This document shows positions 3,830 to 27,018 of a stretch of DNA of 64,000 nt, piece after piece. Position numbers and translations under genes: made by a program. Within the stretch, counting starts at the first letter, position 1, and each line of letters opens with the position of its first letter. This stretch comes from Clostridia bacterium (GTDB lineage Bacteria > Bacillota > Peptococcia > DRI-13 > SM3-B62), in NCBI GenBank assembly GCA_018432615.1, contig JAHDSQ010000001.1, positions 62,001-126,000 on the forward strand, in the 5' to 3' direction. The notes under the pieces are model-generated. The model was not told where the DNA came from and searched no databases. It saw nothing but the letters and a program-made list of their open reading frames with translations.

Positions 3830-4429
3830 ATGAAAAAAACGATTCTTATTGCGGTTGTTTTAATGCTGGTCTTATTGATAACGGCAGGCTGTGGTTTAAC
3901 CGGTAAACTGGCTTCGTTGAAAGAAGGGTTTAACGGGGAAGAGGGGGTTTCTACAGAAAATCAGACTTCTACGGTGGTGATTGAAGGGTCTGAAACGAGT
4001 CCTGTCCTGCAGGAAGAAACAAAAGCGGTTCTTCTCTACTTTGTGGATGCTACCGGCAATAAACTGGTGGCAGAGGAGAGAATGATTCCTAAGGTAGAGG
4101 GTATAGCCAGGGCTGCCATGAATGAACTAATCAAGGGCCCGGCATTGCTCGGACTGCAGTCGGTAATACCGCCCAGTACTGTTTTATTGGATATCAATGT
4201 ACGTCCCGAAGGGTTGGCGATTGTAGATTTCAGTGCGAATCTGATTGAAGACATGCCGATTTCGGCCAATGCGGAAAAATTAGCTGTATATTCCATAGTC
4301 AACACCTTATGCCAGTTTTCTACCGTAGATCGCGTAGAAATGCGTGTTGACGGCAAACAGGTCGATACCTTACTGGGTTTTGTGGATTTCGGAGAAGAAA
4401 TAACCGCAAATGCTGATTTAACAGAATGA
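3830..4429 (+). CDS. GerM-like (GerMN domain) lipoprotein
   Basis: A 199-aa secreted lipoprotein. Residues 1-20 form a type II signal peptide (two Lys, a hydrophobic core, then TAG before Cys21). A low-complexity Thr/Ser/Glu linker follows, then a GerMN domain from ~residue 63 (AVLLYFVDATGNKLVAEER, then MNELIKGP, then TVEIR-like DRVEMRVDGKQV near the end). GerMN proteins occur in sporulation and germination (GerM) and in other envelope proteins; this supports a spore-forming Firmicute but does not prove a spore role. The ATG at 3830 is chosen over one 8 codons upstream because AAGGGGGA lies 6-8 nt ahead and the signal peptide begins there. The 3' end overlaps the convergent loaP gene by 12 nt. 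Confidence 0.85.
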   Translation: MKKTILIAVVLMLVLLITAGCGLTGKLASLKEGFNGEEGVSTENQTSTVVIEGSETSPVLQEETKAVLLYFVDATGNKLVAEERMIPKVEGIARAAMNELIKGPALLGLQSVIPPSTVLLDINVRPEGLAIVDFSANLIEDMPISANAEKLAVYSIVNTLCQFSTVDRVEMRVDGKQVDTLLGFVDFGEEITANADLTE

Positions 4430-4939
4430 ATCGTTGATTTTCATGATTATCTCTATGCCCACATCTATGATTTTTGGTTCTCCCGCGACCTTCAACAGTA
4501 TCTTAGCCCTTTTCCTGCGGGAATCAACCTTTCTTATAAGCCCTTCCAAGCCCTGTAAAGGGCCTGATTTAACCACGACTCGCGAATTAACGAGGTAGAT
4601 GTTGGAAATATCGATGGTTTCCTTATTCCCCATCAACCTGGTGATGGGGGCCATTTCTGCTGCAGTTACCTTGGAGAAGTGAGTTCCGGCGGAGAGGACC
4701 CTGTAATAACCGGGAATGTTTTTCAGCCTGAAATAAAAGGAATTGTCCATCGTGGCGTTGATGAACACGTAGCCGGGGAACAAAGCTTTGGTGATATACT
4801 CTGTTTTTCCATTCCGTTTTTCAGGAAGAAGCCTTTTGGGAACAAAAGGGGACAAGGTAGCCTCATCAAAAAGGTAACGCAGGCTTTTTTGTACCATTTC
4901 TTCTTTTCCTGTTTGTACAAAGAGCACGTACCAGTCCAT
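4418..4939 (-). CDS. loaP: NusG-family specialised antiterminator, LoaP-like
   Basis: A 173-aa NusG paralogue. The N-terminal ~110 residues are the RNA-polymerase-binding NGN domain (DWYVLFVQTGKEEMVQ, then LFPGYVFI, then IPGYYRVL); the C-terminal ~55 residues are a KOW domain (SGPLQGLEGLIRKVDSRRKRAK) rich in basic residues. The opening WYxLFVxTGKEEMVQ, the PKR segment and the RKRAKILL tail resemble LoaP proteins, which promote transcription through long polyketide operons in Bacillus by recognising an RNA hairpin in the leader. The second Met (4939) is chosen as start: AAGGTG lies 6 nt upstream and family members begin MxWY; an ATG at 4960 is an alternative. Divergent transcription from a >58-kb PKS operon makes it the likely pathway regulator. 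A housekeeping NusG is less likely, because there is no secE/rpl context. Confidence 0.85.
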   Translation of the reverse strand: MDWYVLFVQTGKEEMVQKSLRYLFDEATLSPFVPKRLLPEKRNGKTEYITKALFPGYVFINATMDNSFYFRLKNIPGYYRVLSAGTHFSKVTAAEMAPITRLMGNKETIDISNIYLVNSRVVVKSGPLQGLEGLIRKVDSRRKRAKILLKVAGEPKIIDVGIEIIMKINDSFC

Positions 4940-5002
4940 CAGCCTCACCTTCCAAGTCATGGATTTCCCTCTCCCGGGTGCTGATTACTACTGTTCAATT
5001 TA

Positions 5003-5031
5003 ATATTATTCGTAATTAGTGAGATAGTCAA
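5003..5031 (-). promoter_or_regulatory. Sigma-A type promoter for loaP
   Basis: On the minus strand: TTGACT (5031-5026), a 17-nt spacer, TAATAT (5008-5003). Both boxes are near consensus and spacing is ideal. Transcription would start near 4996, leaving a ~57-nt leader before the loaP start. Confidence 0.78.
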
Positions 5032-5077
5032 CGGAGAAAATGTCGAATAATGTAGAAATAACGTAAAATTAGAACTA

Positions 5078-5106
5078 TTGACACATTTGCAACATACTAG
5101 TATAAT
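5078..5106 (+). promoter_or_regulatory. Consensus sigma-A promoter of the biosynthetic operon
   Basis: TTGACA (5078-5083), exactly 17 nt, TATAAT (5101-5106): a perfect match to the sigma-A consensus. Transcription should begin near 5113. I see no other convincing promoter downstream in any intergenic gap, so this could drive the whole rightward operon. So strong an initiation signal implies that control acts after initiation, for example through LoaP and the leader. Confidence 0.9.
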
Positions 5107-5129
5107 CGAAATATCAGGAAAAAATTTTG

Positions 5130-5167
5130 GCGGCAAGCAATCGATGCTGAGGTACGTTGTTTGCCGC
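5130..5167 (+). promoter_or_regulatory. Leader RNA hairpin, candidate LoaP target
   Basis: Arms 5130-5140 (GCGGCAAGCAA) and 5157-5167 (TTGTTTGCCGC) pair over 11 bp with one G-U, enclosing a 16-nt loop (5141-5156). It begins about 17 nt after the predicted transcription start and ends 22 nt before the first gene. No U-tract follows, so it is not an intrinsic terminator. LoaP-controlled operons are known to need a small hairpin in the 5' leader; whether this one has the required sequence features was not tested. Confidence 0.7.
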
Positions 5168-5189
5168 AACGCAACAGGGGCTACTTGCC

Positions 5190-5945
5190 GTGGCGCGAGT
5201 ATACGCTATTTCCGACATTCATGTTGACTATCAGGAGAACCGGCTTTGGGTGGACAACCTGTCGCGGGTTGAATACAAAAAAGACACCCTGATTCTGGTA
5301 GGGGACGTGACGGATGACTTGAACCTCTTGGAGGAGACGTTCAGGAAACTTGGTCGCAGGTTTTATCGCGTCCATTTCGTTCCCGGCAACCACGATTTAT
5401 GGGTCAGGTCTTATCGGGGGATTGATTCCTTGGAAAAGCTGCGGTTAATCGGAGAGATTGCCGGAGCATGTGGTGTTTGCATGGAATCATGCAATTATGG
5501 AACCCTTTCCCTTGTCCCTCTCTACGGGTGGTATGATTACAGTTTTGGAACCCCCGGGGAGACAATGTTGGAAAGGTGGATGGATTACTATGCCTGCCGC
5601 TGGCCGGCAGGTTTTGATGAGGATGAAATAACCGGGCATTTTTTAAGATTAAATACCGACAGGCTCGGCATCCGGAATAAGCATGTCATAACTTTCTCCC
5701 ACTTTGTGCCGCGTATTGATCTCTTGCCGGCATTTATTCCGGAAAAAAGAAGAGAAGTCTACCCGATGCTGGGAAGCGTATTGTTGGAACAGCAAATAAG
5801 AGCGGTAAAACCCGCTTTGCACATTTTCGGGCACAGTCATATCAATCTGGAGGTTGCCGTTGACGGCATAAGATATCTGAATAGTGCCTTGGGATATCCG
5901 CACGAAACGTTGATTAGTGCACGCAAACTTCGGCGAGTTTTTTAA
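5190..5945 (+). CDS. Calcineurin-like metallophosphoesterase
   Basis: A 251-aa dinuclear-metal phosphoesterase with all family motifs: D9-x-H11 in ISDIHVDY, G38-D39 in LVGDVTDD, GNHD (66-69) in VPGNHDLW, a single His in FSHFVPR, and GHSH (214-217) near the end. Substrate cannot be told from sequence; family members act on nucleotides, phosphoproteins or phospholipids. The start is taken at GTG 5190 because relatives begin VYAISDIH and AGGGG lies upstream; a TTG at 5157 is possible but falls inside the leader hairpin. It is the first gene of the polyketide operon, 77 nt ahead of the PPTase, which suggests a pathway role such as removing a phosphate from an intermediate or protective group. That role is inference only. 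Confidence 0.85.
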   Translation: MARVYAISDIHVDYQENRLWVDNLSRVEYKKDTLILVGDVTDDLNLLEETFRKLGRRFYRVHFVPGNHDLWVRSYRGIDSLEKLRLIGEIAGACGVCMESCNYGTLSLVPLYGWYDYSFGTPGETMLERWMDYYACRWPAGFDEDEITGHFLRLNTDRLGIRNKHVITFSHFVPRIDLLPAFIPEKRREVYPMLGSVLLEQQIRAVKPALHIFGHSHINLEVAVDGIRYLNSALGYPHETLISARKLRRVF

Positions 5946-6022
5946 TTGACAAATGTCATAAGAAAGACAGAGTGCCTGACATGTGTGACCGGAGGTATGA
6001 TTTAGGAAGGAGGAAGGTAAGA

Positions 6023-6805
6023 TTGGCGGTGGACAATACTTCTTCGCTAATTTTGATAAACAGACTGATGATGAAGGAAGAAGACGGGGGCTATAGCCCT
6101 TCTTTTTGTCTTGCATGTTTGCCGAGGACCTATGAATATGAAAGATTGACGGAATATTTGCACCCGCAGGAATTGGGATACTATGAAACTCTTAGGTACG
6201 AAAAGAGAAAAAGGAGCTATCTGTTGGGAAGGTTTTGCGCCAAAATGTCTTTTGCAAAGGTAAGCGGTGAGAATAAGCCGGAAGAGATACTGATTAAAAG
6301 GGGGTTTTTTAACCACCCTGTTTTAATATATTCAGGAATAAGGGACAACCTTGAAGTTGGGATCACTCATTGTGATGAGATGGGAGCCGCCGTTGCATTC
6401 TACCAGTCTTACCCTTTCGGAGTAGACGTTGAAAGGACAAGTCCGGACAGGGCATCCGTAATGGACAGGGTCATGACTGAAGAAGAAAAAGTATTGTGGG
6501 AGGGTCTGGGGATTTCCGCTACAGTCGCTTTAACTGCGTTTTGGACAGCCAAAGAGGCCCTTTCCAAGGTTTTGAAGACGGGAATGAATACGCCTTTTTA
6601 TGTTTTTGAGATAAGTAAAATTGAAGAGCAAGAGGGGTATTATGTCAGCCGATATAAGCATTTCAGTCAGTATTGCTGTTTTACCTTCAACTGGGGTGGG
6701 TATGTCCTTTCTTTAACCTGCCCTCAGGGAACGAAACTGTCGGAAGAGTTCATCCGGGAGGTACAGGGTGTTGGGGCAAAGTTGAAGCTGCTTGACAAGG
6801 ATTGA
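6023..6805 (+). CDS. 4'-phosphopantetheinyl transferase (Sfp type)
   Basis: A ~260-aa Sfp-type enzyme that converts apo carrier proteins to holo form by moving phosphopantetheine from CoA to the carrier Ser. The two Mg/CoA-binding motifs are present: FGVDVE (residues ~132-137) and FWTAKEALSK (~173-182); the N-terminal half contains the RKRSYLLGRFCAK segment usual in Sfp proteins. The start is uncertain: TTG at 6023 has AAGGAGG about 9 nt upstream and is preferred; GTG at 6029 also works, and the frame is open to 5972. Size fits Sfp (~225-260 aa) rather than AcpS. It would activate the PCP and the ACPs encoded downstream. Confidence 0.93.
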   Translation: MAVDNTSSLILINRLMMKEEDGGYSPSFCLACLPRTYEYERLTEYLHPQELGYYETLRYEKRKRSYLLGRFCAKMSFAKVSGENKPEEILIKRGFFNHPVLIYSGIRDNLEVGITHCDEMGAAVAFYQSYPFGVDVERTSPDRASVMDRVMTEEEKVLWEGLGISATVALTAFWTAKEALSKVLKTGMNTPFYVFEISKIEEQEGYYVSRYKHFSQYCCFTFNWGGYVLSLTCPQGTKLSEEFIREVQGVGAKLKLLDKD

Positions 6806-6842
6806 GTATTGTAAAGGCGGTAAAAAGAGAGGGGCTGGTAAA

Positions 6843-9800
6843 ATGAGAAGCTCCCTTGTATTGATGTTTTCGGGTCAGGGCTCTCAATACTACGGGATGG
6901 GAAAAGAATTATTAGAAAATAACAAAAATTTCCGCGATAATATGTTTACCTTGGATCAAACGGTCAAGAGGCTGGTCGGGTATTCTGTTCTCGACGTCTT
7001 GTACGCGGACAAGGGAAAAAATGAAGAGTTTACGGAAACCCGCTATACCCATCCGGCTCTTTTTATGGTGCAATATTCCCTGGCGCGGTTGCTGTTGGCT
7101 GAAGGAGTGCAGCCGGATCATGTGCTGGGGGCAAGTTTGGGTGAATATGTTGCGGCTGCATTGGCGGGAGTGATGGAGCCCGGGGATGTACTGGAGGTCC
7201 TTTTAAAGCAAGCCCTGCTTTTGGAAGCACATTGCAAGCCAGGAGGAATGTTGGCGGTTTTTGCCGAGTGGGGGCTCTATCAGAAAGATTCTTTCGTTAG
7301 GGAAAACAGCGAATTGGCGGGAGTGGGTTTTGCGGAGCATTTTGTTCTGGCAGGGGAGAAAGAAAAACTAAAGGAGTTGGAGCAATATCTCCGAGGGCAG
7401 GAGATCATAACACAAATGATACCGGTGTCCTACGGGTTTCACTCTTTTCTGGTTGAGCCCATTGCCGAAGAGTATCTGTCCTTTATCAGGGAAAAGAGGT
7501 TCTTTCCTCCTGGAATCTCCATAGTTAGTAGCCTTGAAGGTTGTGAGATTTCTGAGGTCAGGCCGGAATATTTCTGGGAAGTGACCCGGCGGCCTTTCCA
7601 ATTCGCTAAAGCCATAGACTATTTACAAAAAAGAGGAAGGCACATTTACCTGGATTTAGGGCCTACAGGTACTTTGGCGGGTTATGTCAAGCGTAACCTG
7701 GGAGCAGGAGCGCAATCTTCGGCGTTCCCGGTGCTTACTCCTTTTGGGGGGGAATTAAAGAATTTGCGAGGGATATTCAGACTCCTTGCCGTGGGCAAGG
7801 GAATGAGAACAGAAGAAAAAAATATTGTAAAAAGGGAGGAGCGGGAAATGGCAGCCTATTTATTTCCGGGGCAAGGCTCCCAGCAAAAGGGCATGGGAGG
7901 AGAGCTTTTTGATGAGTTTAAGGAGTTAACGGCCCAGGCTGATGAGATCCTGGGCTATTCCATCAAAAAGCTGTGCCTGGAGGATGCGGACAACCGGCTG
8001 GTGCAGACCAACTACACCCAGCCGGCTTTGTATGTTGTCAATGCGTTGACTTATCTAAAGAAAATCCGGGAGACGGGTAAAAAGCCGTCATATGTAGCCG
8101 GACATAGTTTAGGGGAGTACAATGCCCTCTTTGCGGCAGATTCCTTTGATTTTGCCACCGGCTTGAGATTAGTCCAAAAGAGAGGGGAATTGATGAGCAA
8201 AGCCACCGGCGGCGGCATGGCGGCGGTAATCGGTTTGAGCCGGGAAGAGATTGAACAAATCTTACAGGAAGCGGGCTTTACAGGGCTAGATGTGGCAAAC
8301 TTTAACAGCCCTTCCCAAACCGTTATTTCAGGCGCCGCAAAGGATATCACCGAAGCAAAACCCGTTTTTGAAAAGGCCGGAGCGTCTATGTATGTTGTTT
8401 TGAAGGTGAGCGGGGCTTTCCATTCCCGTTATATGGAGCCGGCGCAAAAGGAATTCGCTGAATTTCTGCAGGATTTTCAGTTCTCTGACCCGGCGATACC
8501 CGTTATCTCCAATGTTCAGGCCAGGCCCTATCAAAAAGGTGAGGTTAAGAAAAATTTACTGGAGCAGTTCACCGCTTCCGTGCAGTGGACAGACAGCATC
8601 AGGTATCTGATGGGCAAGGGTGTTGAGGAAATGGAGCAAATCGGACCGGGGAAGGTCCTGACGGACTTGGTTAAAAAGATCAAAAAAGAAGCCGAGCCTT
8701 TGGTTATTCAGGAAAGTATTCCTTTAAGCATCGAAAGGCAAGGGAAGCAGGAACCAGCGCCGGTGGTAAATGCGCAATCTTTGGGGGATAGGGGATTTAA
8801 GGAAGATTATGGTCTGAAGTATGCTTACTTGGCGGGCTCCATGTATCAAGGGATTGCCTCGCAAAAAATGGTGGTAAGGCTAGGAAAAACCGGTATGCTG
8901 GGTTTCTTCGGTGCAGCGGGTCTGGACTTAAAGAGGCTGGAGGAGACAATTGTTGGGCTGCAAAAGGAACTGTCCAAGGGGGAGCCTTACGGCATGAGTC
9001 TCCTGCACAATCCCTTGCATCCGGAAGTGGAGGAAAAAACCGTTGACCTTTATCTCAAACACGGTGTTCGCATGATTGAGGCCTCCGCCTATCTGAGTGT
9101 GAGCGAGGCTTTGGCCAAGTACCGCTTGCAGGGTGTAAAGCGAGATAAAGAAGGAAAAGTCCGGCCTGCAAACAGGATAATTGCTAAGCTTTCCAGACCG
9201 GAAGTGGCGGAGATATTTATGAGTCCTATTCCTTCCGGGATAGTTGATAAGCTCAAGGCGAAGAAAAGGATAACCCCTGAGGAGGCGGAGCTTTCCCGAG
9301 AAATACCGCTGGCAGATGATGTCTGCGTGGAGGCTGATTCTGCCGGTCATACCGACCGCAGAGCGGCCTCTGTTTTAATGCCCGCTGTTTTAACGCTACG
9401 GGAAAAAATGATGCGGAAGTATGGGTACTCCCGCAAAATCAGGATAGGAGCTGCCGGTGGGATCGGCACGCCGGAAGCGGCTGCCGCGGCCTTGGTTTTA
9501 GGGGCGGAGTTCCTGATGACCGGATCTATCAACCAGTGTACGGTGGAAGCCGGTATCAGCGATACCGTCAAAGATATGTTGGAGGACATCAACGTGCAAG
9601 ATACCGACTATGCACCCTCGGTCGAATTGTTTGAATTAGGTGCCAGGGTGCAGGTGTTAAAGAAGGGAGTATTTTTCCCAGCCAGAGCGAACAAATTGTT
9701 TGAACTTTATCGCCAATATGATTCCCTGGAGGAACTGGGGATAAAGCATAAAGGGCAGCTTGAAGAACGATATTTTCAACGAAGCCTGGAAGAGGTGTGG

Positions 9801-10103
9801 CAAGAGGTGGCAGCATCTTATCCCCGGGATGAGGTGGAAAAAGCCCGACAGAATCCTAAACAAAAGATGGCGCTGGTTTTTCGTTGGTACCTGGAGCGTT
9901 CCACCGAGTGGGCCTTGGGGGGGCTTGTGCAAAGAAAGGTTGATTTCCAGGTGCAGTGTTCTCCAGCCTTGGGTGCCTTTAATCAATGGGTCAAGGGTAC
10001 CCCCATGGAAAAATGGAGAAATAGGCATGTTGATGAAATCGGGATCAAACTGTTGGAGGAAACCGCCTCTTTATTGCTGACAAGATACCGGGAGATCTGC
10101 TGA
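6843..10103 (+). CDS. Trans-acting AT-AT-ER fusion (acyl hydrolase-like AT, malonyl AT, enoylreductase)
   Basis: A 1086-aa three-domain protein of the kind that supplies trans-AT PKSs. AT1 (residues ~5-320): GQGSQYYGMG, nucleophile Ser98 in GASLGEY, His200 in GFHS. At the position of the Arg that binds the malonyl carboxylate it reads KQALLL (Gln123), which suggests an acyl hydrolase for clearing stalled chains. AT2 (~336-640): GQGSQQKGMG, Ser422 in GHSLGEY, Arg447 in QKRGELM and His527 in GAFHS, all as expected for malonyl-ACP loading. ER (~660-1086): PfaD-like FMN enoylreductase with EADSAGHTD and GAAGGIGTPEAAAAAL. The domain order matches known AT-AT-ER proteins of trans-AT clusters. The start is ATG 6843, after AGAGGGG. 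A second good start lies inside at 7848. Confidence 0.93.
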   Translation: MRSSLVLMFSGQGSQYYGMGKELLENNKNFRDNMFTLDQTVKRLVGYSVLDVLYADKGKNEEFTETRYTHPALFMVQYSLARLLLAEGVQPDHVLGASLGEYVAAALAGVMEPGDVLEVLLKQALLLEAHCKPGGMLAVFAEWGLYQKDSFVRENSELAGVGFAEHFVLAGEKEKLKELEQYLRGQEIITQMIPVSYGFHSFLVEPIAEEYLSFIREKRFFPPGISIVSSLEGCEISEVRPEYFWEVTRRPFQFAKAIDYLQKRGRHIYLDLGPTGTLAGYVKRNLGAGAQSSAFPVLTPFGGELKNLRGIFRLLAVGKGMRTEEKNIVKREEREMAAYLFPGQGSQQKGMGGELFDEFKELTAQADEILGYSIKKLCLEDADNRLVQTNYTQPALYVVNALTYLKKIRETGKKPSYVAGHSLGEYNALFAADSFDFATGLRLVQKRGELMSKATGGGMAAVIGLSREEIEQILQEAGFTGLDVANFNSPSQTVISGAAKDITEAKPVFEKAGASMYVVLKVSGAFHSRYMEPAQKEFAEFLQDFQFSDPAIPVISNVQARPYQKGEVKKNLLEQFTASVQWTDSIRYLMGKGVEEMEQIGPGKVLTDLVKKIKKEAEPLVIQESIPLSIERQGKQEPAPVVNAQSLGDRGFKEDYGLKYAYLAGSMYQGIASQKMVVRLGKTGMLGFFGAAGLDLKRLEETIVGLQKELSKGEPYGMSLLHNPLHPEVEEKTVDLYLKHGVRMIEASAYLSVSEALAKYRLQGVKRDKEGKVRPANRIIAKLSRPEVAEIFMSPIPSGIVDKLKAKKRITPEEAELSREIPLADDVCVEADSAGHTDRRAASVLMPAVLTLREKMMRKYGYSRKIRIGAAGGIGTPEAAAAALVLGAEFLMTGSINQCTVEAGISDTVKDMLEDINVQDTDYAPSVELFELGARVQVLKKGVFFPARANKLFELYRQYDSLEELGIKHKGQLEERYFQRSLEEVWQEVAASYPRDEVEKARQNPKQKMALVFRWYLERSTEWALGGLVQRKVDFQVQCSPALGAFNQWVKGTPMEKWRNRHVDEIGIKLLEETASLLLTRYREIC
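7837..7850 (+). promoter_or_regulatory. Internal ribosome-binding site and ATG before AT2
   Basis: AGGAG (7837-7841) with a 6-nt spacer precedes an in-frame ATG (7848) exactly at the start of AT2 (MAAYLFPGQG). Translation from here would yield a 751-aa AT2-ER protein like the separate AT-ER proteins of other trans-AT clusters. Confidence 0.45.
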
Positions 10104-10146
10104 TGTCAGTCACGAGATGCAGATATTACAGAAAGGAAATATGAGG

Positions 10147-10962
10147 ATGAATTTGGAGATATTGAGCTGTCTGCCGAAAGGAAGGCGACAAAGGGTTCCT
10201 TTGCTTTTTCTGCATGGGGCGTTTCACGGGGCCTGGTGCTGGCAAGAAAATTTTCTTCCATACTTTTCTGCCCAGGGGTTTCCTTCTTATGCCTTAAGCT
10301 TTCGAGGACACGGCAAGAGCGAGGGACGGGAGGAACTGAACACCTTCACCCTGGAGGATTATCTGGAGGATACCCTTCAGGCTATTGGACTTATTGGTGG
10401 AAAACCGGTATTGATCGGACATTCCATGGGCGGGGCGGTAGCGCAAATGCTTATCGGTTCACATCAGGACAAGATAGCGGGAGTTGTGTTGCTGGCCGCG
10501 ATCCCTCCCCATGGCATGTTGAAAGATATGTTTCGTTTGTGCTTTACAAAATTCAGGAGTGTGATGAGACTGGCCCTTTTCAATGAAGGGAAAGCAGAGA
10601 GTTTTCCTACAGAACTTCTTTTTTCTGAAGGATTGCCGGTGGAAAAAAAAGAGGAATTCGCGAAGCTCTCACAGCCTGAGTCAAGAAAAGCCCGGAACCA
10701 GTTCATGAAGAGGATCGTCACAAGGCGGTTCAATGGAGAAGTACCGGTGCTGGTGCTGGGTGGAGAAAAAGACTGCTTCCTTTCACCTAGGGCTCTATCT
10801 GCCACAGGGCGGATGTACAAAACAGAAGCAGTTATTCTTTCCGGTATCAGCCATGATATGATGCTTGACCCGGCGTGGAGAAGTGCTGCCGACGAGATTC
10901 TTAGATTTATCTCTTTACCTACTATCCAGAGTAAAAAAATTATAGGTGGTGATGAAAGATGA
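10147..10962 (+). CDS. Alpha/beta hydrolase (possible discrete thioesterase or acyl hydrolase)
   Basis: A ~271-aa alpha/beta-hydrolase with HGAFHGAWCW (oxyanion-hole HG), nucleophile Ser93 in GHSMGG, an acid in GGEKDCFLSP and catalytic His236 in ISHDMMLDP, so a full Ser-Asp-His triad. It resembles small lipase/esterase-type hydrolases rather than classical type II thioesterases. In the operon it could cleave an ester or thioester, edit misprimed carriers, or supply the starter acid to the adjacent acyl-AMP ligase. ATG 10147 is preferred (AAAGGA 9 nt upstream); ATG 10141 is equally in frame. It overlaps the next gene by 4 nt (ATGA), so the hydrolase and ligase are translationally coupled. Confidence 0.85.
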   Translation: MNLEILSCLPKGRRQRVPLLFLHGAFHGAWCWQENFLPYFSAQGFPSYALSFRGHGKSEGREELNTFTLEDYLEDTLQAIGLIGGKPVLIGHSMGGAVAQMLIGSHQDKIAGVVLLAAIPPHGMLKDMFRLCFTKFRSVMRLALFNEGKAESFPTELLFSEGLPVEKKEEFAKLSQPESRKARNQFMKRIVTRRFNGEVPVLVLGGEKDCFLSPRALSATGRMYKTEAVILSGISHDMMLDPAWRSAADEILRFISLPTIQSKKIIGGDER

Positions 10963-12143
10963 GTGATTTTTTTGACTTGGCGAGACATGGAACAAGGAGA
11001 GCCGTGGTAAATGATATGGGGGAAAGTTTTTCATATAAAGATGTAAATGAGATGTGTGGCAGACTGAGAGAGTTTATTGGTCCAGGCAAAAAAAAGCTTG
11101 TGATGGTATTGGCCAAGAATGATATCGGGACGCTCATCGGTTACCTGGCGGCTTTGCAAAGCAACAATGCGGTACTGCTTACTGATGCGGACTTGAATGA
11201 TGAAATTTTGGACAACCTAATCTACATTTACAGGCCGGATTTCGTTTGGAGGCCTCAGAAAAACAATAAGCTGGCTGCTTTTCGCTTCATGGAATATGAA
11301 TTGTTCGAATACGCCTGGTACAACGATTTAATCATTCACCCTTCCTTAAGTGTATTGCTTTCAACCAGCGGTCGTGTGGGCTGGCCTAAAATGGTAAGGC
11401 TGACGGGGGAAGGTGTTAAGGCGGATGCTTGTACGACCGCCTCGTATCTTAACCTGACTGAAACAGACAGGACCGCTACTACTCTGCCAATTTACTATTC
11501 CTATGGCTTGTCTGTTATCAACGGTAGTTTAAAAGCCGGGGCCACGCTGTTGTTGACCGGCTTATCGGTAGTAAGGGATGAGTTTTGGAGATTCTTTAAA
11601 AGGGAGGAAGGGACATCCTTGAGCGGTGTTCCATACACATATGAGGTCTACAAGGCGATAGGGTTTTTGAATATGGAGCTGCCTTCGCTTTGTTCCATGA
11701 TTCAGGTCGGAGGGAGACTTGACAGGCAAACGGCGTTGGAATTCGCCGCTCATGCCCGCAAGAAGATTTTTAACTTCTTTACAATGTATGGGGCAGCGGA
11801 AGCAACGGCTCATATGTCTTATCTCTACCCCGAGTACAATATCAAAAAAGCGGGCAGTATCGGCAAGGCTATACCGGGAGGAAAGCTCTGGCTGACGGAT
11901 AAGGCGGGGAAAACAATAACAGAACCATATACGGAAGGGGAGCTGTTTTACCGGGGAGTTAACGTAATGATGGGTTACGCTCAGGGTAATCAGGACCTTG
12001 CTAAAGGTGACGAACTAGGCGGAATATTGAGGACCGGCGACATTGCATACTTTGACGGGGATGGGTTCTTTTACCTGGTAGGACGAAAGGACAATAACCA
12101 AAAAGAGTTTAATCTGGAATATAAAAGGGAGAGAGATATATGA
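10959..12143 (+). CDS. AMP-dependent acyl ligase lacking the C-terminal subdomain
   Basis: A 394-aa member of the acyl-AMP synthetase superfamily. It has a variant phosphate loop, STSGRVGWPKMV (~residues 130-141; the usual form is TSGTTGxPKG), an aromatic/GAAE motif FTMYGAAEAT (~274-283) and LRTGDIAYFDGDG near 357-369. It stops right after the hinge motif GRKDN, where ~100 more residues with the catalytic Lys normally follow; instead the stop overlaps the start of the methyltransferase gene (ATGA). The overlap makes a sequencing error less likely, and no missing domain is visible in other frames here. It may activate the starter acid as an acyl adenylate for the free ACP, but lack of the Lys-bearing lid makes full activity uncertain. 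Confidence 0.8.
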   Translation: MSDFFDLARHGTRRAVVNDMGESFSYKDVNEMCGRLREFIGPGKKKLVMVLAKNDIGTLIGYLAALQSNNAVLLTDADLNDEILDNLIYIYRPDFVWRPQKNNKLAAFRFMEYELFEYAWYNDLIIHPSLSVLLSTSGRVGWPKMVRLTGEGVKADACTTASYLNLTETDRTATTLPIYYSYGLSVINGSLKAGATLLLTGLSVVRDEFWRFFKREEGTSLSGVPYTYEVYKAIGFLNMELPSLCSMIQVGGRLDRQTALEFAAHARKKIFNFFTMYGAAEATAHMSYLYPEYNIKKAGSIGKAIPGGKLWLTDKAGKTITEPYTEGELFYRGVNVMMGYAQGNQDLAKGDELGGILRTGDIAYFDGDGFFYLVGRKDNNQKEFNLEYKRERDI

Positions 12144-12904
12144 ACCAGAGCTTTGTTGTCAAGGAACAATTTAATAAACAGGCCGGCAACTTTGATAACT
12201 GGTCTCTCACGCAAAATGAGAAAATATATCAATCCTTATACAATTTCTTCGGTGTTGAGCCCCAGGACCGGTTGTTAGATGTGGCATGCGGGACAGGGGC
12301 GTTTTCCGTTTATGCCGCCCAAAGGACCAAGGATGTGTGGGGTGTGGATATTTCCGAGGGGATGATTGGGATAGCCGAGGAGCATGTGAAACAGCGCGGT
12401 TTGCAGAACACAACTTTTCTATGCTGCGATGTGCAGGAGATACCTTTGCCCCCTGGTTCCTTTGACTGTGTGGTTTCAAAATCAGCCTTTCATCATATGA
12501 GAGAGTACAAAAGAATATTCGCGGAAATGGTCAAATGCTGTAAAAAGGGGGGGCGGCTCGGCCTGCATGACGTTATTCTATATGATGACGAAGAGGTTGA
12601 CGGGTTTTTTGAAGAGCTTGAGATGGCCGTTGATGCGAGCCATCATTTTTCACTGTCGGCAGCACAGATAGTCGAGTTGTACAGGGAGAATAATATTGCA
12701 ATCTATCGTGTGTATGAAGCGATATCCGAATTGAATTTTCATGAATATCTCAATCACGCCGTGCAAAGCGAGGAAGATAAAAAAAAGATTGAGAGAATGC
12801 TGAACATGGGTTTGAAAGACAAAAAGATTTCGTCATGGCTTGTTCAAAAAAACGGTGTTCTCTATTGGAGGAGGAAAACTTTTACCGTAGCCGGTAGGAA
12901 ATAG
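12140..12904 (+). CDS. Class I SAM-dependent methyltransferase
   Basis: A 254-aa methyltransferase with the SAM-binding motif I LLDVACGTGAFS (~residues 44-55), acidic residue at the end of strand 2 (GVDISEGMI), motif CCDVQEIPLPPGSFDCVVS and LHDVILYDD further on. This is the UbiE/MenG-like small-molecule type. It could O-, N- or C-methylate the starter or a tailoring position; nothing in the sequence fixes the acceptor. It overlaps the ligase gene by 4 nt and is followed 11 nt later by the NRPS-PKS gene, so it is firmly within the operon. It is distinct from the three cMT domains embedded in the PKS proteins. Confidence 0.88.
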   Translation: MNQSFVVKEQFNKQAGNFDNWSLTQNEKIYQSLYNFFGVEPQDRLLDVACGTGAFSVYAAQRTKDVWGVDISEGMIGIAEEHVKQRGLQNTTFLCCDVQEIPLPPGSFDCVVSKSAFHHMREYKRIFAEMVKCCKKGGRLGLHDVILYDDEEVDGFFEELEMAVDASHHFSLSAAQIVELYRENNIAIYRVYEAISELNFHEYLNHAVQSEEDKKKIERMLNMGLKDKKISSWLVQKNGVLYWRRKTFTVAGRK

Positions 12905-12915
12905 AGGAGATAGTA

Positions 12916-15900
12916 ATGGGTGGTGTTAATATGAAAAAGACGGTTGTTGGCGGCATGACACGCCAGGAACTGCTTCTCGCTTATCGGGAAGGGGAAATAT
13001 CGGCCCAGGAGGTGCGAAGCGGACTGGAGCGTCTTAAAGGAGAAGGTCATAAAAGCCCCTTGTCTGAAGGTCAGAAGGGGTTGTGGGCCTTGCAAAAAAT
13101 GTTTCCCGAGACGAGTGCATATAACGTACCTTGCTGCTTACAGCTGCGGGGAAACCTGGATAAAGCGGCCTTGGAAAGAGCCTGCCGCTATACTCTGGAG
13201 ACGTACCCAGTACTTAAGAGCGTTTTTCGGGAGGAAAAGGGTGTTCCTTACCGGGTGGTACAGGATGTTTCGTCCTTCTTCTGGAGAGAAGAGGATATAA
13301 CAAAGCTGGCAGACCATGAAGTGTCGTCGTATTTGCAAAAATGGGTAGAGGAGCCCTTTTTTTTGGAAAAAGGGCCGTTAGTACGTTTCCATTTGCTTTT
13401 GCGAGGTACAAACGAGTATCTCTTTTTATTTGTCGTACACCATATCGTCTTTGACGGTTTTTCCACGGCCGTATTTTTGAAGGCTTTATTCAGTGCCTAT
13501 CGTAAGCTGTCGGGGGAGGAAGAGCCCGGAGAAGACCCTGTTGTGTATAACTACGACGAGTACGTGGAGTGGGAAAAGAAAATATTGACCTCTCGGGCAG
13601 GAGAGGGGCAGCGTTTGTACTGGAAAGAACAGCTGAGCGGAAAGCTGCCTGTGCTGGAATTGCCTGCGGATTTTCCCCGTCCTCTGACACCAAGTTTTAG
13701 TGGTCAAACCTACAGTGACGAAATGCGGCCGGAAGTGAGCAAGAGGATCAAGGAACTGGCGCAATCCCAGGGTGTCAATCCCTCGGTAGTGCTTTTGGCA
13801 GCCTTTAAGGTTTTGCTGTTTCGCTACACGGGAGAAGAGGATATTATCGTCGGTATGCCCACGCTGGGGAGAGAAGAGGAAAGGTTTCAAAAACAGATAG
13901 GCCTGTTTATCAATATGCTTGCCCTGCGCAGTCGGCTAAGGGCGGAAGATTCCTTTATTTCCCTTTTGCAAATCATACAAGAGAACCTGCTGGATGGCTT
14001 GGAACACTCCTCCTATCCCTTTCCTGCTTTGCTCAGAGAACTGGATACATCTCGTACCCAGGCCTTTTCGCCGGTATTTCAAGTAGCGTTTTCTTACCAG
14101 AACTTTCTTGGACCGGCAAGCCCCGCAAAGCTTCTGGAGGAATTCGCCGACATGTTTGCGCTGGAATACATTCCGGACGTCCGACAGCAGGGCGAATATG
14201 AATTGGAGTTAGAGGTTTTTGAACGTGAAGGAGCATTTGTTTTAAACTTTAAATACCATCCGGATGTTTTCAAACCTGCCACAATTACTAGCATAAGCAA
14301 GGCTTTACAAAGTCTTCTGGCAGGTATGGCCGAAAATCCCGGCTTACCTGTGTCTGACTATCCTTTACTATCCCAGGCTGATAAAAAGATAATCCTGGAG
14401 GACTGGAACGCCACCCGGACAAGCTATCCCGCCGATTCATGCTTTTATGAGCTGTTCGAGCAGCAAGCCCAAAGGACACCGGATGCTCTGGCCGTAGTCT
14501 ATGAGGAGAAAAGCCTGACTTACCGAGAACTGGACCGCAGGAGCACTGCCCTGGCGCTGTATTTGCAGGCCCAAGGTGTCGGACCGGAATGTCTGGTGGG
14601 AATCTGTGTGAACAGGTCACCGGAGATGATCTTGGGCTTATTGGGAATCATGAAGGCCGGAGGCGCTTATGTACCGTTAGAGCCGGATTATCCGGCTGAA
14701 CGGCTGCGCTACATGCTGCAGGACAGTAAGCCCCGGCTGGTGGTGACCCAGGCGGAGGTTGTTTCCCACATAGGCGGGCTGTTGAATGATGAAACCACCG
14801 TTGTACTACTGGACCGGGACTGGAAGGAAATAGAAAAAACCTCGCGGCGGAGAAAGGCTAAACCGACGCGAAAAGTGAAGCCCCTTAATCTGGCCTACGT
14901 AATGTATACGTCGGGGAGTACGGGGAAGCCCAAGGGAGTTATGGTCACCCAGCGAGGCCTGACCAATTTCCTCTGTTCCATGAGCCGGACCCCCGGCCTT
15001 ACGGCGGATGATGTCCTGCTTGCCGTGACTACATATTGCTTTGACATTGCAGGGTTGGAACTCTATTTGCCCCTGCTGAAAGGGGCTTGCTGCCATCTTT
15101 GTAGTAAGGAAAAGGCCAAGGATGCCGATAAACTGCAGAAAAGGATTGCAAAGATTAAGCCCACTGTGATGCAAGCCACACCAGCCACCTGGAGCATGCT
15201 CTTTCATAGCGGGTGGCGTAACGAAGAAGGGGTGAAGATACTGTGTGGTGGAGAGGCCCTTCCCCTTGCCTTGAAGCAACAATTTGTCGCCGCAGGCTGC
15301 GAGGTTTGGAATATGTTCGGCCCGACGGAGACAACCATTTGGTCCACAATCAAGCGAATCACTGAGGAAGAGCCCATTACCATCGGCAAGCCCATTGCTA
15401 ACACTCAGATTTACATCCTTGATAATAATATGCAGCCTGTTCCCGTCAGTGTCCCGGGCGAGCTTTGTATTGCCGGGGACGGACTGGCCAGGGGCTATTT
15501 AAACCTACCGGAACTAACAGCAGAAAAGTTTGTTGACAATCCCTTTGCCGACGGGCAAAAACTGTATAAAACCGGAGATCTGGCCCGCTGGCTTCCGGAG
15601 GGAGAGATCGAGTTTATCGGACGTATCGATCACCAGGTGAAGGTACGCGGTTACCGTATCGAACTGGGTGAAATAGAAGCAAGGCTTAATGAGCATCCCG
15701 CTATTAAGGACTGCGTTGTTATCGTTAAGGAAGATGAACACAATAAACAGCTAATAGCCTATTATACCGGGGATGATAAAGGTGTCTTGTCCCGACAGGA
15801 ACTGCGTTCGTACCTCAGCCTCAGCTTACCCGAATATATGGTGCCTGCGCACTTTATCCCTTTAGAAGAAATACCGCTGACCCCTTCCGGCAAGGTGGAC

Positions 15901-18900
15901 CGCAAAGGACTGGGGGCACGCAGGATTGGAACAAAGAGGAAAGAAAAGCTTGAGCTGCCCCAATCGGAAATCGAAGAGAAGGTCTTTAAAATATACCGGG
16001 AGATCCTTGATTGTGATGAAATAGGCAGGGAAGAGGGCTTTTTTGATATCGGCGGGAACTCTCTTGCGGCGGTAATTGCAGCAGAGCGGATCAACAAGGA
16101 GTTTGGCGTCGAGATACCGGTGACCGTCCTTTTTAAATACCCTAATATCAGCGGTTTGAGCGCTTACTTGGCAACAATCAAAGGGGAAGACGTCCCAGTG
16201 AGTGAAGAAACCGAAGAGGTCAAGGAAACCGAAGAAACGAAGGCGCTGGGGGCGGATACGGTCAAGATAAAAGAGCTTTCTCAGGATGGTGAATACCCGC
16301 CCTATTATAACGATAGTCTGGCCGTCATTGGGATCTCCTGCTGTTTTCCCGGAGCGGAAAGCCATGGGGAGTTCTGGGAAAACTTGAAAGAAGGAAAAGA
16401 AAGCGTTCGGCGTTTCTCCCGGGAGGAATTGAGGGGACTAAGGCTGCCTCCTGAAATCCTGGAGGATCCCCAGTATGTTGCGGTGCAGTCGACAATTGAG
16501 GGCAAAGAATTATTTGACCCCGGGTTTTTCAACATTTCTCCCCGGGACGCAGAGGTCATGGATCCTCAATTAAGACTCCTCTTGCTTAATTCCTGGCAGG
16601 CCATAGAGGATGCCGGGTATACTCCCCGCAGTATTCCGGAAACAGCTGTATTCATGGCGGCGAGCAGCAATCCATATCGGGTGATGCACTCAGGTGAGGC
16701 AGGAGAAAATGCCAGGGTCTTAAAGAAACCGGAAGAGTACGTTTCCTGGGTTATGGCCCAAGGAGGCACCATTCCCACCATGATATCTCACAAGCTTGGG
16801 TTGAAAGGCCCCAGTTTCTTCATCCATTCAAACTGTTCCTCATCACTGGCAGGGCTGTATGCCGCCTATCACAGCTTAAGTTCCCGGGAGGCAAAGTATG
16901 CCTTGGTGGGTGCGGCTACGGTGTATACCACGACAAACGCCGGATACATTTATCGTCCGGGTATGAATTTCTCAGCCGGTGGACGGGTGAGGACATTTGA
17001 CGCCGGGGCAGACGGGATGGTGGCAGGGGAAGGAGTTGCGGTCATTCTGCTCAAAAACGCCCTGGAGGCAATCAGAGACGGCGATCACATTTATGCGCTT
17101 GTACGTGGTATCGGTGTTAATAATGACGGGGCGGACAAGGTCGGGTTTTATGCCCCCGGCATCATTGGACAGACAGAGGTTATTGTCAAAGCCCTGGAGA
17201 AAACCGGAATCGATCCCACGACGGTTAGTTATGTGGAGGCTCACGGGACCGGGACGGAGTTAGGTGATCCTATTGAATTTACTGCCCTTTCTGACGCCTA
17301 TCGCCGTTATACGGAGAAAAAGCAGTTCTGTGGGATCGGTTCAGTAAAAACAAACATCGGTCATCTCGATACGGCAGCCGGTCTGGCCGGTTGTATCAAG
17401 GTGGCTTTAAGTCTGTATCACAAGGAAATTCCTCCGACCATCAACTATGAAAAGCCGAATCCTAAGCTGAGCTTGGAACAATCCCCCTTTTATGTGGCTG
17501 CGGAATCGCATCCCTATCCGGATGGCGTTGAGCCGATCCGGGCAGCCCTGAGTTCCCTGGGGATGGGGGGGACAAACGCCCACGCTATTTTTGAAGGGTA
17601 CGTTCCTGCCGAAAGGGCGGCAGGCGGTATGCGAACAGGTGAAGGGGAGGACAGGAAATACCTCGTACCCTTGTCGGCTAAAACAGGGGAACAGCTTATT
17701 GCCTATGCCAAAAAGATGTTGGCTTACCTGCAAAACAAAGGAGAAAAAGACCTGCCGGCCTTAGCCTATACCCTGCAAGTGGGACGGGAGGCTATGGAAA
17801 ACAGGGCTCTCTTTCTTGTTACGACAGCTCAGGAGTTGGAGGAAAAGCTGACGAGATTTGTCAAAGGCGAGGAAAGGATAGAGGGCTGTTTCAAGGGTGA
17901 GGTTAGGAAGGACGATGAGGCCGTCCGGTTGTTTGAAAGGGATCAAGATTGCCGGAAGGTTATTCAAAAATGGCTTGATCAGGGGGAATGGCAGAAGCTG
18001 GCCGAACTGTGGGCCAGAGGCCTGCAGATAGATTGGAGCATGTTGTATTTAGAGGGGAAGCCCTCAAAACTCAGCTTGCCCACTTATCCCTTTAATCTCA
18101 AACCCTATCGTTTACATAATCCGGGACAAGAAAGCGGGGAAGGACGGTCAGTTGGCTATGCGCTGCCCTCTTCCCCTGTTTACTCCCCTGACAATGAAAA
18201 AAGGACAGAGGAGTTTACGCCAAAAGGCGTGATGCTTCTCCCAGCTTGGGAGGTTGTGGATGTACCCCAAGAAAAAGCCTGGCCGGATGGGGCAGAGCGC
18301 ATCATAGTCAGCGGGGGTCTCAAGAAGGACAAAGAAGCCCTCAAACAGCTCTATCCGCAAGCACGCTTTTTAATGGTACAGGGGAATCAGACAACCAAGA
18401 AACTTGAGGAGATGCTCAAGGAAGAACTTAAGGAATCTAAGGGGTTTAACGAAGACGAAAGCAAGACGCACCTTTTTTGGCTTGCTTCATCTTTTTCACC
18501 TGAGTATACAACTGCCGATCTTTCTCCCGCCGAGCAAGAAAAGGAAGCATTGCTGGTCTTTCGTACTATCAAAGCCCTGTTGGAGCTGGGCTATGGGGAG
18601 CGTACCCTTGGCTGGACCTTTATTACTGTGGGTACTCAGCCGATCACTGCTGATGAAAAGGGCAATACGGCCCAGGCGGCCCTTCATGGTCTGGTAGGCT
18701 CCTTGGCCAAAGAATATCCGTATTGGCGGATCCGTCTGGTGGATGTCGAAGAAGACGAAAGGGGCGAAGATGGGCATGAGTGGCCGTGGCAGGAAATTTT
18801 GAGGCTGCCGGCTGATCCCGAAGGGAATGCCTGGGTCTATCGCAGGGGAGAATGGTACCGGCAAAAGCTTTCCCTTGTGGAAGACCTGCCCAAAGACCGT

Positions 18901-21900
18901 CTGCTGTACAAGGAGCAGGGTGTGTATCTGGTAATCGGAGGGGCTGGGGGCCTGGGAGAAATCTGGAGCGAGTATATGATTCGCAATTACCGGGCTAGAT
19001 TGGTCTGGCTAGGTAGAAGACCGCAAGACGGGAAAATTCGGGGTAAGCTGGACAGGTTGGCTGCAATAGGCAGGGCTCCGCTCTATCTAGAAGCGGATGC
19101 AAAAGATGAAGCCTCTTTGAGAGAAGCGTATCTGAAGGTTAAAGAAGAATACGGAAGGGTTAACGGAGTGGTTCACTCCGCGGTGGGCGTACTTGATGAG
19201 AGTCTGGCTAAAATGACGGAACAAGGCTTTCAGGATACCCTGGCGGCGAAGATCGCTATCAGTGTGAGAATGGCTCAAGTCTTGGCACAGGAGCCTCTTG
19301 ATTTCATGCTGTTTTTTTCTTCCTTGGATGCCTTTTCCAAAGACCATGGCAAGAGCGGATATTCTGCCGGCTGTGTTTTTACGGATATTTTTGCCCAGCG
19401 GCTTTCTCTAACAGGAAAATGTGCGGTCAAGGTGATGAACTGGGGGTATTGGGGGGATATCGGCATCGGCGGTGTTGTGCCGGAGGCCTTTAAGAAACGC
19501 CTGGCCCAAGCGGGTATCGGCGGTCTCGAACCCTCCGAAGGAATGGAGGCCTTGGCAAGACTGCTGGCGTCACCTATCAGGCAAGCCGCCTTTTTAAAAG
19601 TAACCAAACCTTTGAAGCTTTCCGGGATGGTCTCTGCCGAGACGGTGCGATTTAATCCCCCGGTTGAGTCCATAGAACTTCAAGACTTGGAGATGCGTCT
19701 CAGGGGTAGTGTGCCGGTGCCGGGAGGCGGAAGTATCGGCTCACGGGATGATATACAGAAAACCCTGGCCAGCTGTGCGGCACAACTGCTTGCGGTACAG
19801 GTCGAGGAAATCGACGGTGAGGCCGAGGGCGAGGATTACGGCTTTGATCCCGCCAAATGGAGCGAATTTGCCGGGAAGTTGAATGAACTTTACGGTCTCG
19901 AGCTGACATCAGCCGTCTTTGCCGAGCACAGGTCCTTGAACTCTTTGGCCGAGTATTTGGCAGAGACATACGGCACTAGTCGGTCGGAAATCGTGGTGCA
20001 AAGACAGGAGATGGAGTTATTGCTCTGTCGCCTGCTTTGGGTGCGCCTGCAAGAAGCAGGTTTTGCCTGGGATGGGAAATCCGGAGCCATCGACAAGCTA
20101 AACCCTCCCTATAATAAGTGGATTTCAGAAACTCAGCGGATACTGGCCGGCTATGGCTATCTAACACATAACGAGGAATCGGTTTATGTAGCTGCCGCTG
20201 CAGAAGTGGATTCTCGGGAAGCCTGGCAAGAATGGGAAGAAAAGAAGGAAGCCTGGCTGCAGGTAGAGGGCATGGAAGCGGCGATAAAAACAGTAGAGGC
20301 TACTCTTTTGGCATTGCCGGATATCCTCAGGGGGAAGGTACAGGCTACCGGGATATTATTCCCCGATTCTTCCCCGAAGCTGCTGGAAGGTATCTACAAG
20401 GGGAATCCTGTCACCGAGTACTTTAACAAGATGGTGGCGGAGGCCGTAGGCCTGTATTTTGCAGAGAGGCTGAGACGTGACCCGGAGGCAAAGATCAACA
20501 TTCTGGAAGTGGGCGCGGGCACCGGCGGAACCAGTGCCGCAGTTTTGGCAAAACTCAATGAATATAAAGGCAGCGTGGGCGAATACTGTTATACCGATAT
20601 TTCCAAAGCCTTTTTGCTGCATGCCGCCGAAACTTACGGTCCCCAAAACCCGTATTTGTCGTACAAAATATTTAATGTGGAGGAAGAACCCGGCAGACAG
20701 GGTATCGGCCTGGGGGAATATGATTTGGTGATAGCGGCCAACGTCCTGCATGCCACAAAAAATGTCCGTCACGTGTTGCAAAACGTGAAGGCCACCTTGA
20801 AAAGAAACGGCCTGCTGGTATTAAATGAGATCAACGCCGGTAACCTTTTCTCCCATTTAACCTTTGGGCTTTTGGAGGGCTGGTGGCTGTCTGAGGATCA
20901 GGTCTTGCGTTTGCCCGGCAGTCCTGCCTTGTCGGCCGCAAGCTGGGAACACGTCCTGGTGAGCGAAGGCTTTAAGAGACCTGTGTTTCCCGCACAAACT
21001 GCCCATGAACTGGGACAGCAAATCGTTATTACCGCCGGTGATGGGATGATAAAAAGGGAATCGGTTTATGAGACTCCGCATCCGGGGCAGGAAAAGGTTG
21101 TGCAGGGCTCCGAAAGGGCAAGACAGCGGGGAGGGAATCGGCAGGGAGAGACCGCCGACGGGCAGGTTAACCGGGAGCGGGTGAAAGACCTTATCAGGAC
21201 AAGCATAGCCGAGGTCCTGAAGATGGAAGAAGGAGAAATTCGGGAAGATACCGGTTTTGCCGAATACGGCGTCGATTCAATTATTGCGGTGAATCTTGTG
21301 GGCCTACTTAATAAGAGGCTGAACATTGACCTGCCGACAACGGTACTGTTTGACTATCCCAGTGTGGACAAGCTGAGCAGGCATATTGCGGAGAAACACA
21401 GCAGTGAATTACCGCTGCCCTCGTGGGATGTTTCGGCAGAATCATCACTGCCCTCGTGGGATATGTCTGAGGAATTGCAGCAGGGGCATGTTGAACGACA
21501 GAAGGAGCCTATCGCTATTATTGGAATGAGCGGGCGGTACGCGAAATCGCCGACATTGCGGGAATTGTGGAAGCACTTAGCAGAAGGTACGGATTTGGTA
21601 GAGGAAGTGAAGCGTTGGGACCTGGCCCGCTGTTTGGCGGAGTTTTCACCGGAAACGACCAGGTATTGCCGGCACGGCAGCTTTTTAGAAGACATTGACC
21701 GCTTTGACCCGTTTTTCTTTAATATTTCCGGCTTGGAGGCAACATATATGGATCCGCGGCAGCGACTCTTTTTGGAGGAGAGCTGGAAGGCTTTGGAGGA
21801 CGCCGGTTACGCCGGAGACGAGTTGAAGGAACGTTCTTGCGGCATTTATGTAGGCTGTGGGGATGGAGATTACCAGCAGTTAGTGGGAAACAATCCTCCT

Positions 21901-26712: not shown

Positions 26713-27018
26713 ACAAAGACAAAACGAGGAGTGAGCAGGATTATGGAAAAGAATAAAATGACAAATGGCGTCATCAAAGAAAAGATTAAGGGATTCCTGA
26801 GGGAAGACTTCTTAGTGGAATTCGGCGGCGACATTACCGAGGACAGCGATTTGTTCAAATCCGGAGTGATCGATTCTTTCAAGTATATCAAGCTGATAAT
26901 TTACTTAGAAAAAGAGTTTGGGATCAAATTCTCGGAGGAAGAGATTTTGGCCAATGTCTTTGTGACTCTTACCAGCATTGCGGACTGCATTACAAAAAAA
27001 GTTGGGGTGGAGAGCTGA
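24898..27018 (+). other. Module 3: non-elongating KS (KS0) followed by a separate ACP
   Basis: KS3 keeps Cys (25384, TACSSS) and KANIGH, but the catalytic HGTGT is NANGM (25786-25800), so decarboxylative condensation is unlikely. The protein ends after the post-KS linker (LPTYPFSRKRCW). The next gene is a free-standing ACP, suggesting a split transfer module. Confidence 0.82.
26743..27018 (+). CDS. Free-standing acyl carrier protein
   Basis: A ~91-aa single-domain carrier protein. The phosphopantetheine Ser lies in SGVIDSFKYIKLI, followed by the helix LEKEFGIKFSEEE; the fold is typical but the sequence differs from the modular ACPs (GxDSI/V) and resembles stand-alone carriers that partner with acyl-AMP ligases (DltC-like). 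ATG 26743 is preferred over the GTG at 26731, which has no room for a ribosome-binding site; GAGGAG lies 11 nt ahead. Its stop overlaps the next start by 1 nt (TGATG). Two roles are plausible: accepting the chain from the KS0 that ends the preceding protein, or carrying the starter acyl group made by the acyl-AMP ligase for the first C domain. Confidence 0.88.
   Translation: MEKNKMTNGVIKEKIKGFLREDFLVEFGGDITEDSDLFKSGVIDSFKYIKLIIYLEKEFGIKFSEEEILANVFVTLTSIADCITKKVGVES

Follow-up and report, generated by a model that had tools for sequence, protein, structure and literature searches.

A long biosynthetic operon, transcribed divergently from the gene of a NusG-like protein and preceded by a leader hairpin, raises the question of whether its expression is set at the promoter or along the path of the elongating RNA polymerase. 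The locus resides in the genome of a Clostridia bacterium (assembly GCA_018432615.1; GTDB lineage Bacteria; Bacillota; Peptococcia; DRI-13; SM3-B62), and was analyzed in a window, the whole stretch of 64,000 nt which corresponds to positions 62,001–126,000 of the forward strand of contig JAHDSQ010000001.1. Coordinates are numbered from the first base of the window. Goodson (2017) and Elghondakly (2021, 2024) reportedly described the LoaP of Bacillus velezensis together with the leader hairpins of dfn and mln. A sequence-only reading of the window had placed a regulator of this kind, an RNA element and their target in one interval of a clostridial lineage. LoaP, hairpin and operon do lie together, and binding of the protein to the hairpin is predicted. 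The locus is very probably a LoaP-controlled biosynthetic operon, in which LoaP bound to the hairpin would act by antitermination and sustain processive transcription over 59 kb.

The operon is of the hybrid NRPS/trans-AT PKS type, and is divergent from the adjoining loaP. Genes run contiguously from 5190 to 64,562 (window-based numbering; the end lies 562 bp past the window), and the operon measures ~59.5 kb from the predicted transcript start, in agreement with the >58 kb estimated earlier. Gene 1 (5190–5945, +) encodes a calcineurin-like phosphoesterase (PF00149), and has a GTG start, kept in relatives, 22 nt past the hairpin. Gene 2 (5972–6805, +) encodes a 4'-phosphopantetheinyl transferase (PF01648). 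An AT-AT-PfaD-type enoyl reductase follows (6792–10103, +; TIGR02814, TIGR00128, and PF00698 in two stretches), which carries the trans-acting AT. Profile matches identify next alpha/beta hydrolase, AMP-binding enzyme and methyltransferase genes (10117–12904, +), and a 4598-aa NRPS/PKS with a C-A loading region, 3 KS and no AT (12916–26712, +). Three PKS genes (1702, 6902 and 3913 aa) fill the remainder of the window (27018–64000, +), the last of them ending at 64,562; integrated AT domains were not found in the two genes of this region (27018–64,562) which were scanned. The 306-bp gap at 26712–27018 does not break the operon; a small frame with acyl-carrier-protein-like sequence sits inside it.

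The regulator is encoded on the opposite strand. The ORF at 4418–4960 (−) measures 180 aa, and an internal ATG at 4939 (MDWYVLF...), preceded by the SD-like GGAAGGTGAGG, yields a protein of 173 aa (4418–4939, −). A −35-like TTGACT at 5023–5031 (−) may belong to the loaP promoter, as judged by consensus match; the corresponding GTCAAC of the + strand is conserved in 4/4 relatives. The 173-aa protein features an NGN domain (PF02357), and the LoaP model (NF033641, antiterm_LoaP) spans NGN and KOW end to end, at 166/166 positions, with a full-length score of 202.7 bits (cut-off 125). Scores fall under the cut-offs of the models for housekeeping NusG (TIGR00922, 76.1 vs 135.7 bits), UpxY (NF033644, 58.1 vs 100) and RfaH (TIGR01955, 45.8 vs 144.5). 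The protein, described earlier as an NGN-KOW protein similar to LoaP, is LoaP. RfaH and UpxY are likewise specialized paralogues of NusG, which act on long operons or lie next to them; RfaH is recruited through DNA, and UpxY through other signals. The window protein lies far under both cut-offs.

The assignment agrees with a tree of 99 sequences, in which long branches make the deeper joins unsure. The four LoaPs of the source class group together (support 100/99) within a 31-row clade (94/99) of Bacilli and Alkaliphilus LoaPs. The housekeeping NusG of the same genome, encoded in contig C50 with the L10 leader close by, falls in a separate 43-row clade (100/100), and the clustering of the window protein with housekeeping NusG, named in the sequence-only reading as an outcome against its case, is not observed. 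Thermoanaerobacter-type LoaPs are placed elsewhere in the tree. The RNA-contact residues of B. velezensis LoaP are E40, R41 and I143 (PMC12691694). The window LoaP has E40, K41 and I135 at the aligned positions, Lys thus replacing Arg at position 41; residue numbers are from PMC12691694, and the equivalence of I135 to I143 is deduced from an 8-residue insertion seen in Bacilli LoaPs. E40 alone is not diagnostic, because housekeeping NusG also has Glu there.

The operon is served by a promoter, TTGACA-17 nt-TATAAT (5078–5106, +), which matches the consensus at 12/12 positions, and is the sole exact site with 16–18 nt spacing on both strands of the 64 kb. It is kept in three relatives (L005, L008 and L009), one of which has CATAAT as −10. 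The sequence-only reading had noticed this perfect promoter facing the PKS genes, and had concluded that it is unregulated, the switch being elongation. The first point stands, as the consensus is exact. The second is not secure, because conserved Spo0A-box-like sites lie upstream, and Spo0A is encoded in the genome (157.9 bits). TGTCGAA (5041) is a perfect Spo0A box, and forms with TGTAGAA (5051) a putative tandem site (5041–5057, +); both motifs precede the −35 by 20–40 bp. L005 and L008 retain them, the spacing in L008 being 10 bp longer, which corresponds to one helical turn. Expression might hence be controlled mainly at initiation, by Spo0A acting through the tandem boxes, LoaP and the hairpin only maintaining elongation constitutively. 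We consider this rather unlikely: an exact consensus promoter should need no activator, one 7-mer is weak evidence, and the boxes are missing in L009, though promoter and hairpin are kept there.

The hairpin (5129–5168, +) begins ~17 nt past the predicted transcript start. It consists of an 11-bp outer stem (5130–5167) and of 2 and 3 inner pairs, separated by single-nucleotide bulges (U and A), and carries a UGAG tetraloop. The fold has an MFE of −21.1 kcal/mol vs a shuffle mean of −11.0 (z = −4.5), and 0/200 shuffles are as good; the 11-bp hairpin first noticed in the sequence-only reading near the transcript start is thus sound in fold and position. A strong stem so close to the 5' end could be a generic hairpin which stabilizes the mRNA, and has no relation to LoaP. 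This is hardly credible, in view of the base conservation among sites and of the genome-wide co-occurrence with LoaP reported below. In the intergenic regions of four genomes of the class a near-invariant core, CAATCGNTGYTSAGGYACGTTG, is found; the outer stem varies, and pairing is largely kept. A descriptor search identified the same fold, with the same core, beside the LoaP genes of Thermoflavimicrobium and Paenibacillus (L066, L069, L079 and others), before PPTase, PKS or NRPS genes. In an alignment of 11 sites, 83.5% of the cells pair, vs 29–49% in slid registers, and 29 cells are changed on both sides (0/500 shuffles as high), the signal being register-specific. In 47 matched sites (46 distinct sequences) 119 cells are changed on both sides, in an alignment which was fitted to the model and hence leans towards structure. 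Unpaired and core bases are near-invariant in the 47 sites, and bulges are present in all. All loops are of the YNMG type: UUCG (34 sites), UGCG (4), UACG (2), UCCG (1), UUAG (2), UCAG (2) and UGAG (2).

The covariance model R1 matches the window hairpin with 47.4 bits (E 1.4e-10), and the model R2, made from 7 Bacilli sites only, recovers it with 30.3 bits (E 1e-4). In the whole source genome the hairpin is found by R1 in single copy (E 1.3e-9). Searches of Rfam with the window region and the Bacilli leaders gave no meaningful match. The window hairpin is a conserved LoaP-linked RNA element, and the sole one in the source genome. It belongs with UNCG-type leader hairpins, the loop UGAG fitting YNMG and not strict UNCG; its identity with the dfn hairpin follows the published description (UNCG-type), not a comparison of sequences.

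The sequence-only reading had tied its case to conservation of the hairpin in related clusters, and this is borne out both by the covariation and by the distribution in genomes. In the source class, LoaP is above cut-off in 4/46 genomes, and the hairpin was found in exactly these 4 and in 0/42 others, a coincidence partly circular because those four hairpins are in R1. The hairpin was found in 28 of 399 Bacilli genomes, LoaP in 29, and both in 26 (Fisher p = 3e-35); one of the 399, the centre genome G428, had contributed to R1. The first genes past the hairpin encode elsewhere phosphopantetheinyl transferase, trans-AT acyltransferase, KS, condensation, thioesterase, P450 or metallo-hydrolase proteins. 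Thermoanaerobacter-type LoaPs (closest solved chain 8f5g) have a NusG-like fold and are over the cut-off of the LoaP model, as the window protein, but differ in their tree position and in the leader: R1-type hairpins were not found in the tested genomes (L073–L075, L080–L082), and searches of these loci with R1 and filters off gave chance matches only. The RNA signal of these LoaPs, if any, would therefore be different.

According to the mechanism we favor, RNA polymerase would initiate near 5113, from the strong promoter, and the emerging RNA would fold into the UNCG-like hairpin after ~55 nt. The divergently encoded LoaP would bind the hairpin through both its domains, load onto the elongation complex in the place of NusG, and remain there; NusA-aided pausing and intrinsic termination would thereby be suppressed over the length of the 59-kb NRPS/trans-AT-PKS operon. 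In B. velezensis, LoaP requires a UNCG-type leader hairpin and antagonizes NusA; the dfn leader measures 417 nt, and has past the hairpin a NusA-aided terminator, where LoaP counters NusA (PMC12691694). An attenuated leader of the dfn/mln type was not found here, as the 22 nt between the hairpin and the GTG of gene 1 hold no intrinsic terminator. A search for Rho in the source genome, estimated 100% complete, gave no match over cut-off, the best match being the flagellar ATPase FliI. Should LoaP act here as it does in Bacillus, its benefit would have to derive from pausing and from termination, intrinsic or intragenic, on the way through the operon, and neither from a leader attenuator nor from protection against Rho. 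Within the operon, 38 terminator-like sites were counted, vs 34 on the antisense strand. Intragenic terminators as LoaP targets were set aside as evidence, as there is no enrichment over the antisense strand.

The hairpin might alternatively recruit LoaP in the manner of RfaH, mainly for the coupling of ribosome and polymerase, or for translation start at the weak GTG, rather than for antitermination. The position of the hairpin end, 22 nt before a GTG with a modest SD, would suit such a role, as would the lack of a leader terminator, and RfaH targets have poor ribosome sites and alternative starts (PMC12691694). We judge it improbable, since many related Bacilli have the hairpin 100–190 nt or more upstream of the first gene, and the LoaP of B. 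velezensis is active in vitro in the absence of ribosomes (PMC12691694). Points counted against antitermination by hairpin-bound LoaP, the preferred reading, are the absence of a leader terminator, the UGAG loop in place of UNCG, the lack of the second leader element described below, Lys 41 for Arg, and operon terminators which are not enriched.

The window locus is a clear, somewhat stripped-down case of the known LoaP system, with a reduced leader. It shares with the dfn/mln system a NusG paralogue of the LoaP family, with E40, K/R41 and an Ile equivalent to I143 at the contact positions, a long polyketide operon and a UNCG-type leader hairpin. It differs in the UGAG loop, in the leader of ~77 nt vs 417 nt for dfn, and in having no leader terminator; one target is present vs two in B. 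velezensis, Rho was not found, and the host is clostridial. With a single target and a single hairpin, a leader close to the minimum, an ideal promoter and no Rho, the locus offers a clean test, set by nature, of the requirements of LoaP. The covariance models make the hairpin known from the literature searchable, and thereby predict LoaP-controlled antibiotic operons across Bacillota.

The LoaP system with its hairpin was already known; an additional element emerged here from the leaders themselves. In their alignment a second conserved block, hereafter element 2, follows the hairpin in Alkaliphilus and in most Bacilli, with the consensus GUAGUGUGUAU..AUACAGACGANNNGGGCGAAGCURUGYCC. It was found in leaders of L148, L153, L155, L158, L160–L164, L166–L174, L180, L182–L185 and L188–L190. 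Element 2 is made by two covarying stems, in which 42 cells are changed on both sides (0/500 shuffles); the signal is register-specific, and comes mostly from the first stem. With the model R3 (E < 1e-4) element 2 was found in 23/399 Bacilli genomes, 21 of which have LoaP (p = 2e-26), some of the sites counted belonging also to the model; the element is nearly restricted to LoaP genomes. The distance from the hairpin is 20–25 nt (~22 nt) in 23/23 paired sites. Element 2 is not in Rfam, and neither the window nor the checked relatives in the class have it. In contrast to most Bacilli leaders, which carry this structured element ~22 nt downstream, the leader of the window lineage thus retains the hairpin alone, 17 nt past the transcript start, with neither leader terminator nor Rho. 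Element 2 may mark a pause or attenuation part of the Bacilli leaders. LoaP leaders could then be modular, hairpin and element 2 being joined in most Bacilli and some clostridia, and the hairpin by itself being enough, as a portable loading site, for a LoaP function that is purely processive and independent of terminators. We advance this tentatively, as a reading with somewhat less than even chances.

Two Bacilli genomes, G516 (L173) and G647 (L171), carry hairpin and element 2 and have no LoaP over cut-off; draft gaps, a lost loaP or another reader protein are candidate explanations. The sole plasmid match with >40% identity is a record labeled Klebsiella grimontii plasmid pNY3A (CP079755.1, L191), in which loaP is divergent from fabD/PKS-type genes, and which carries the LoaP hairpin (19820–19849, −) and element 2 (19738–19795, −). 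Contamination or misassembly is likely, because the gene content looks like Bacillota. Element 2 also adjoins LoaP in Clostridium puniceum (L076:5561–5603, +) and in L042 (2080–2123, +). At these loci, of Clostridium-type loaP, it is preceded by divergent UUCG hairpins (~5510–5545 and ~2025–2065, respectively) missed by R1.

Besides one LoaP above cut-off and one housekeeping NusG, the source genome encodes a third NusG paralogue, just under the LoaP cut-off (L002:1480–1995, +; G000:C36), found also in a sister species (L006). It lies next to polysaccharide (CapD-like) genes, is followed at 1.4 kb by another, partial copy, and is possibly a capsule-operon antiterminator.
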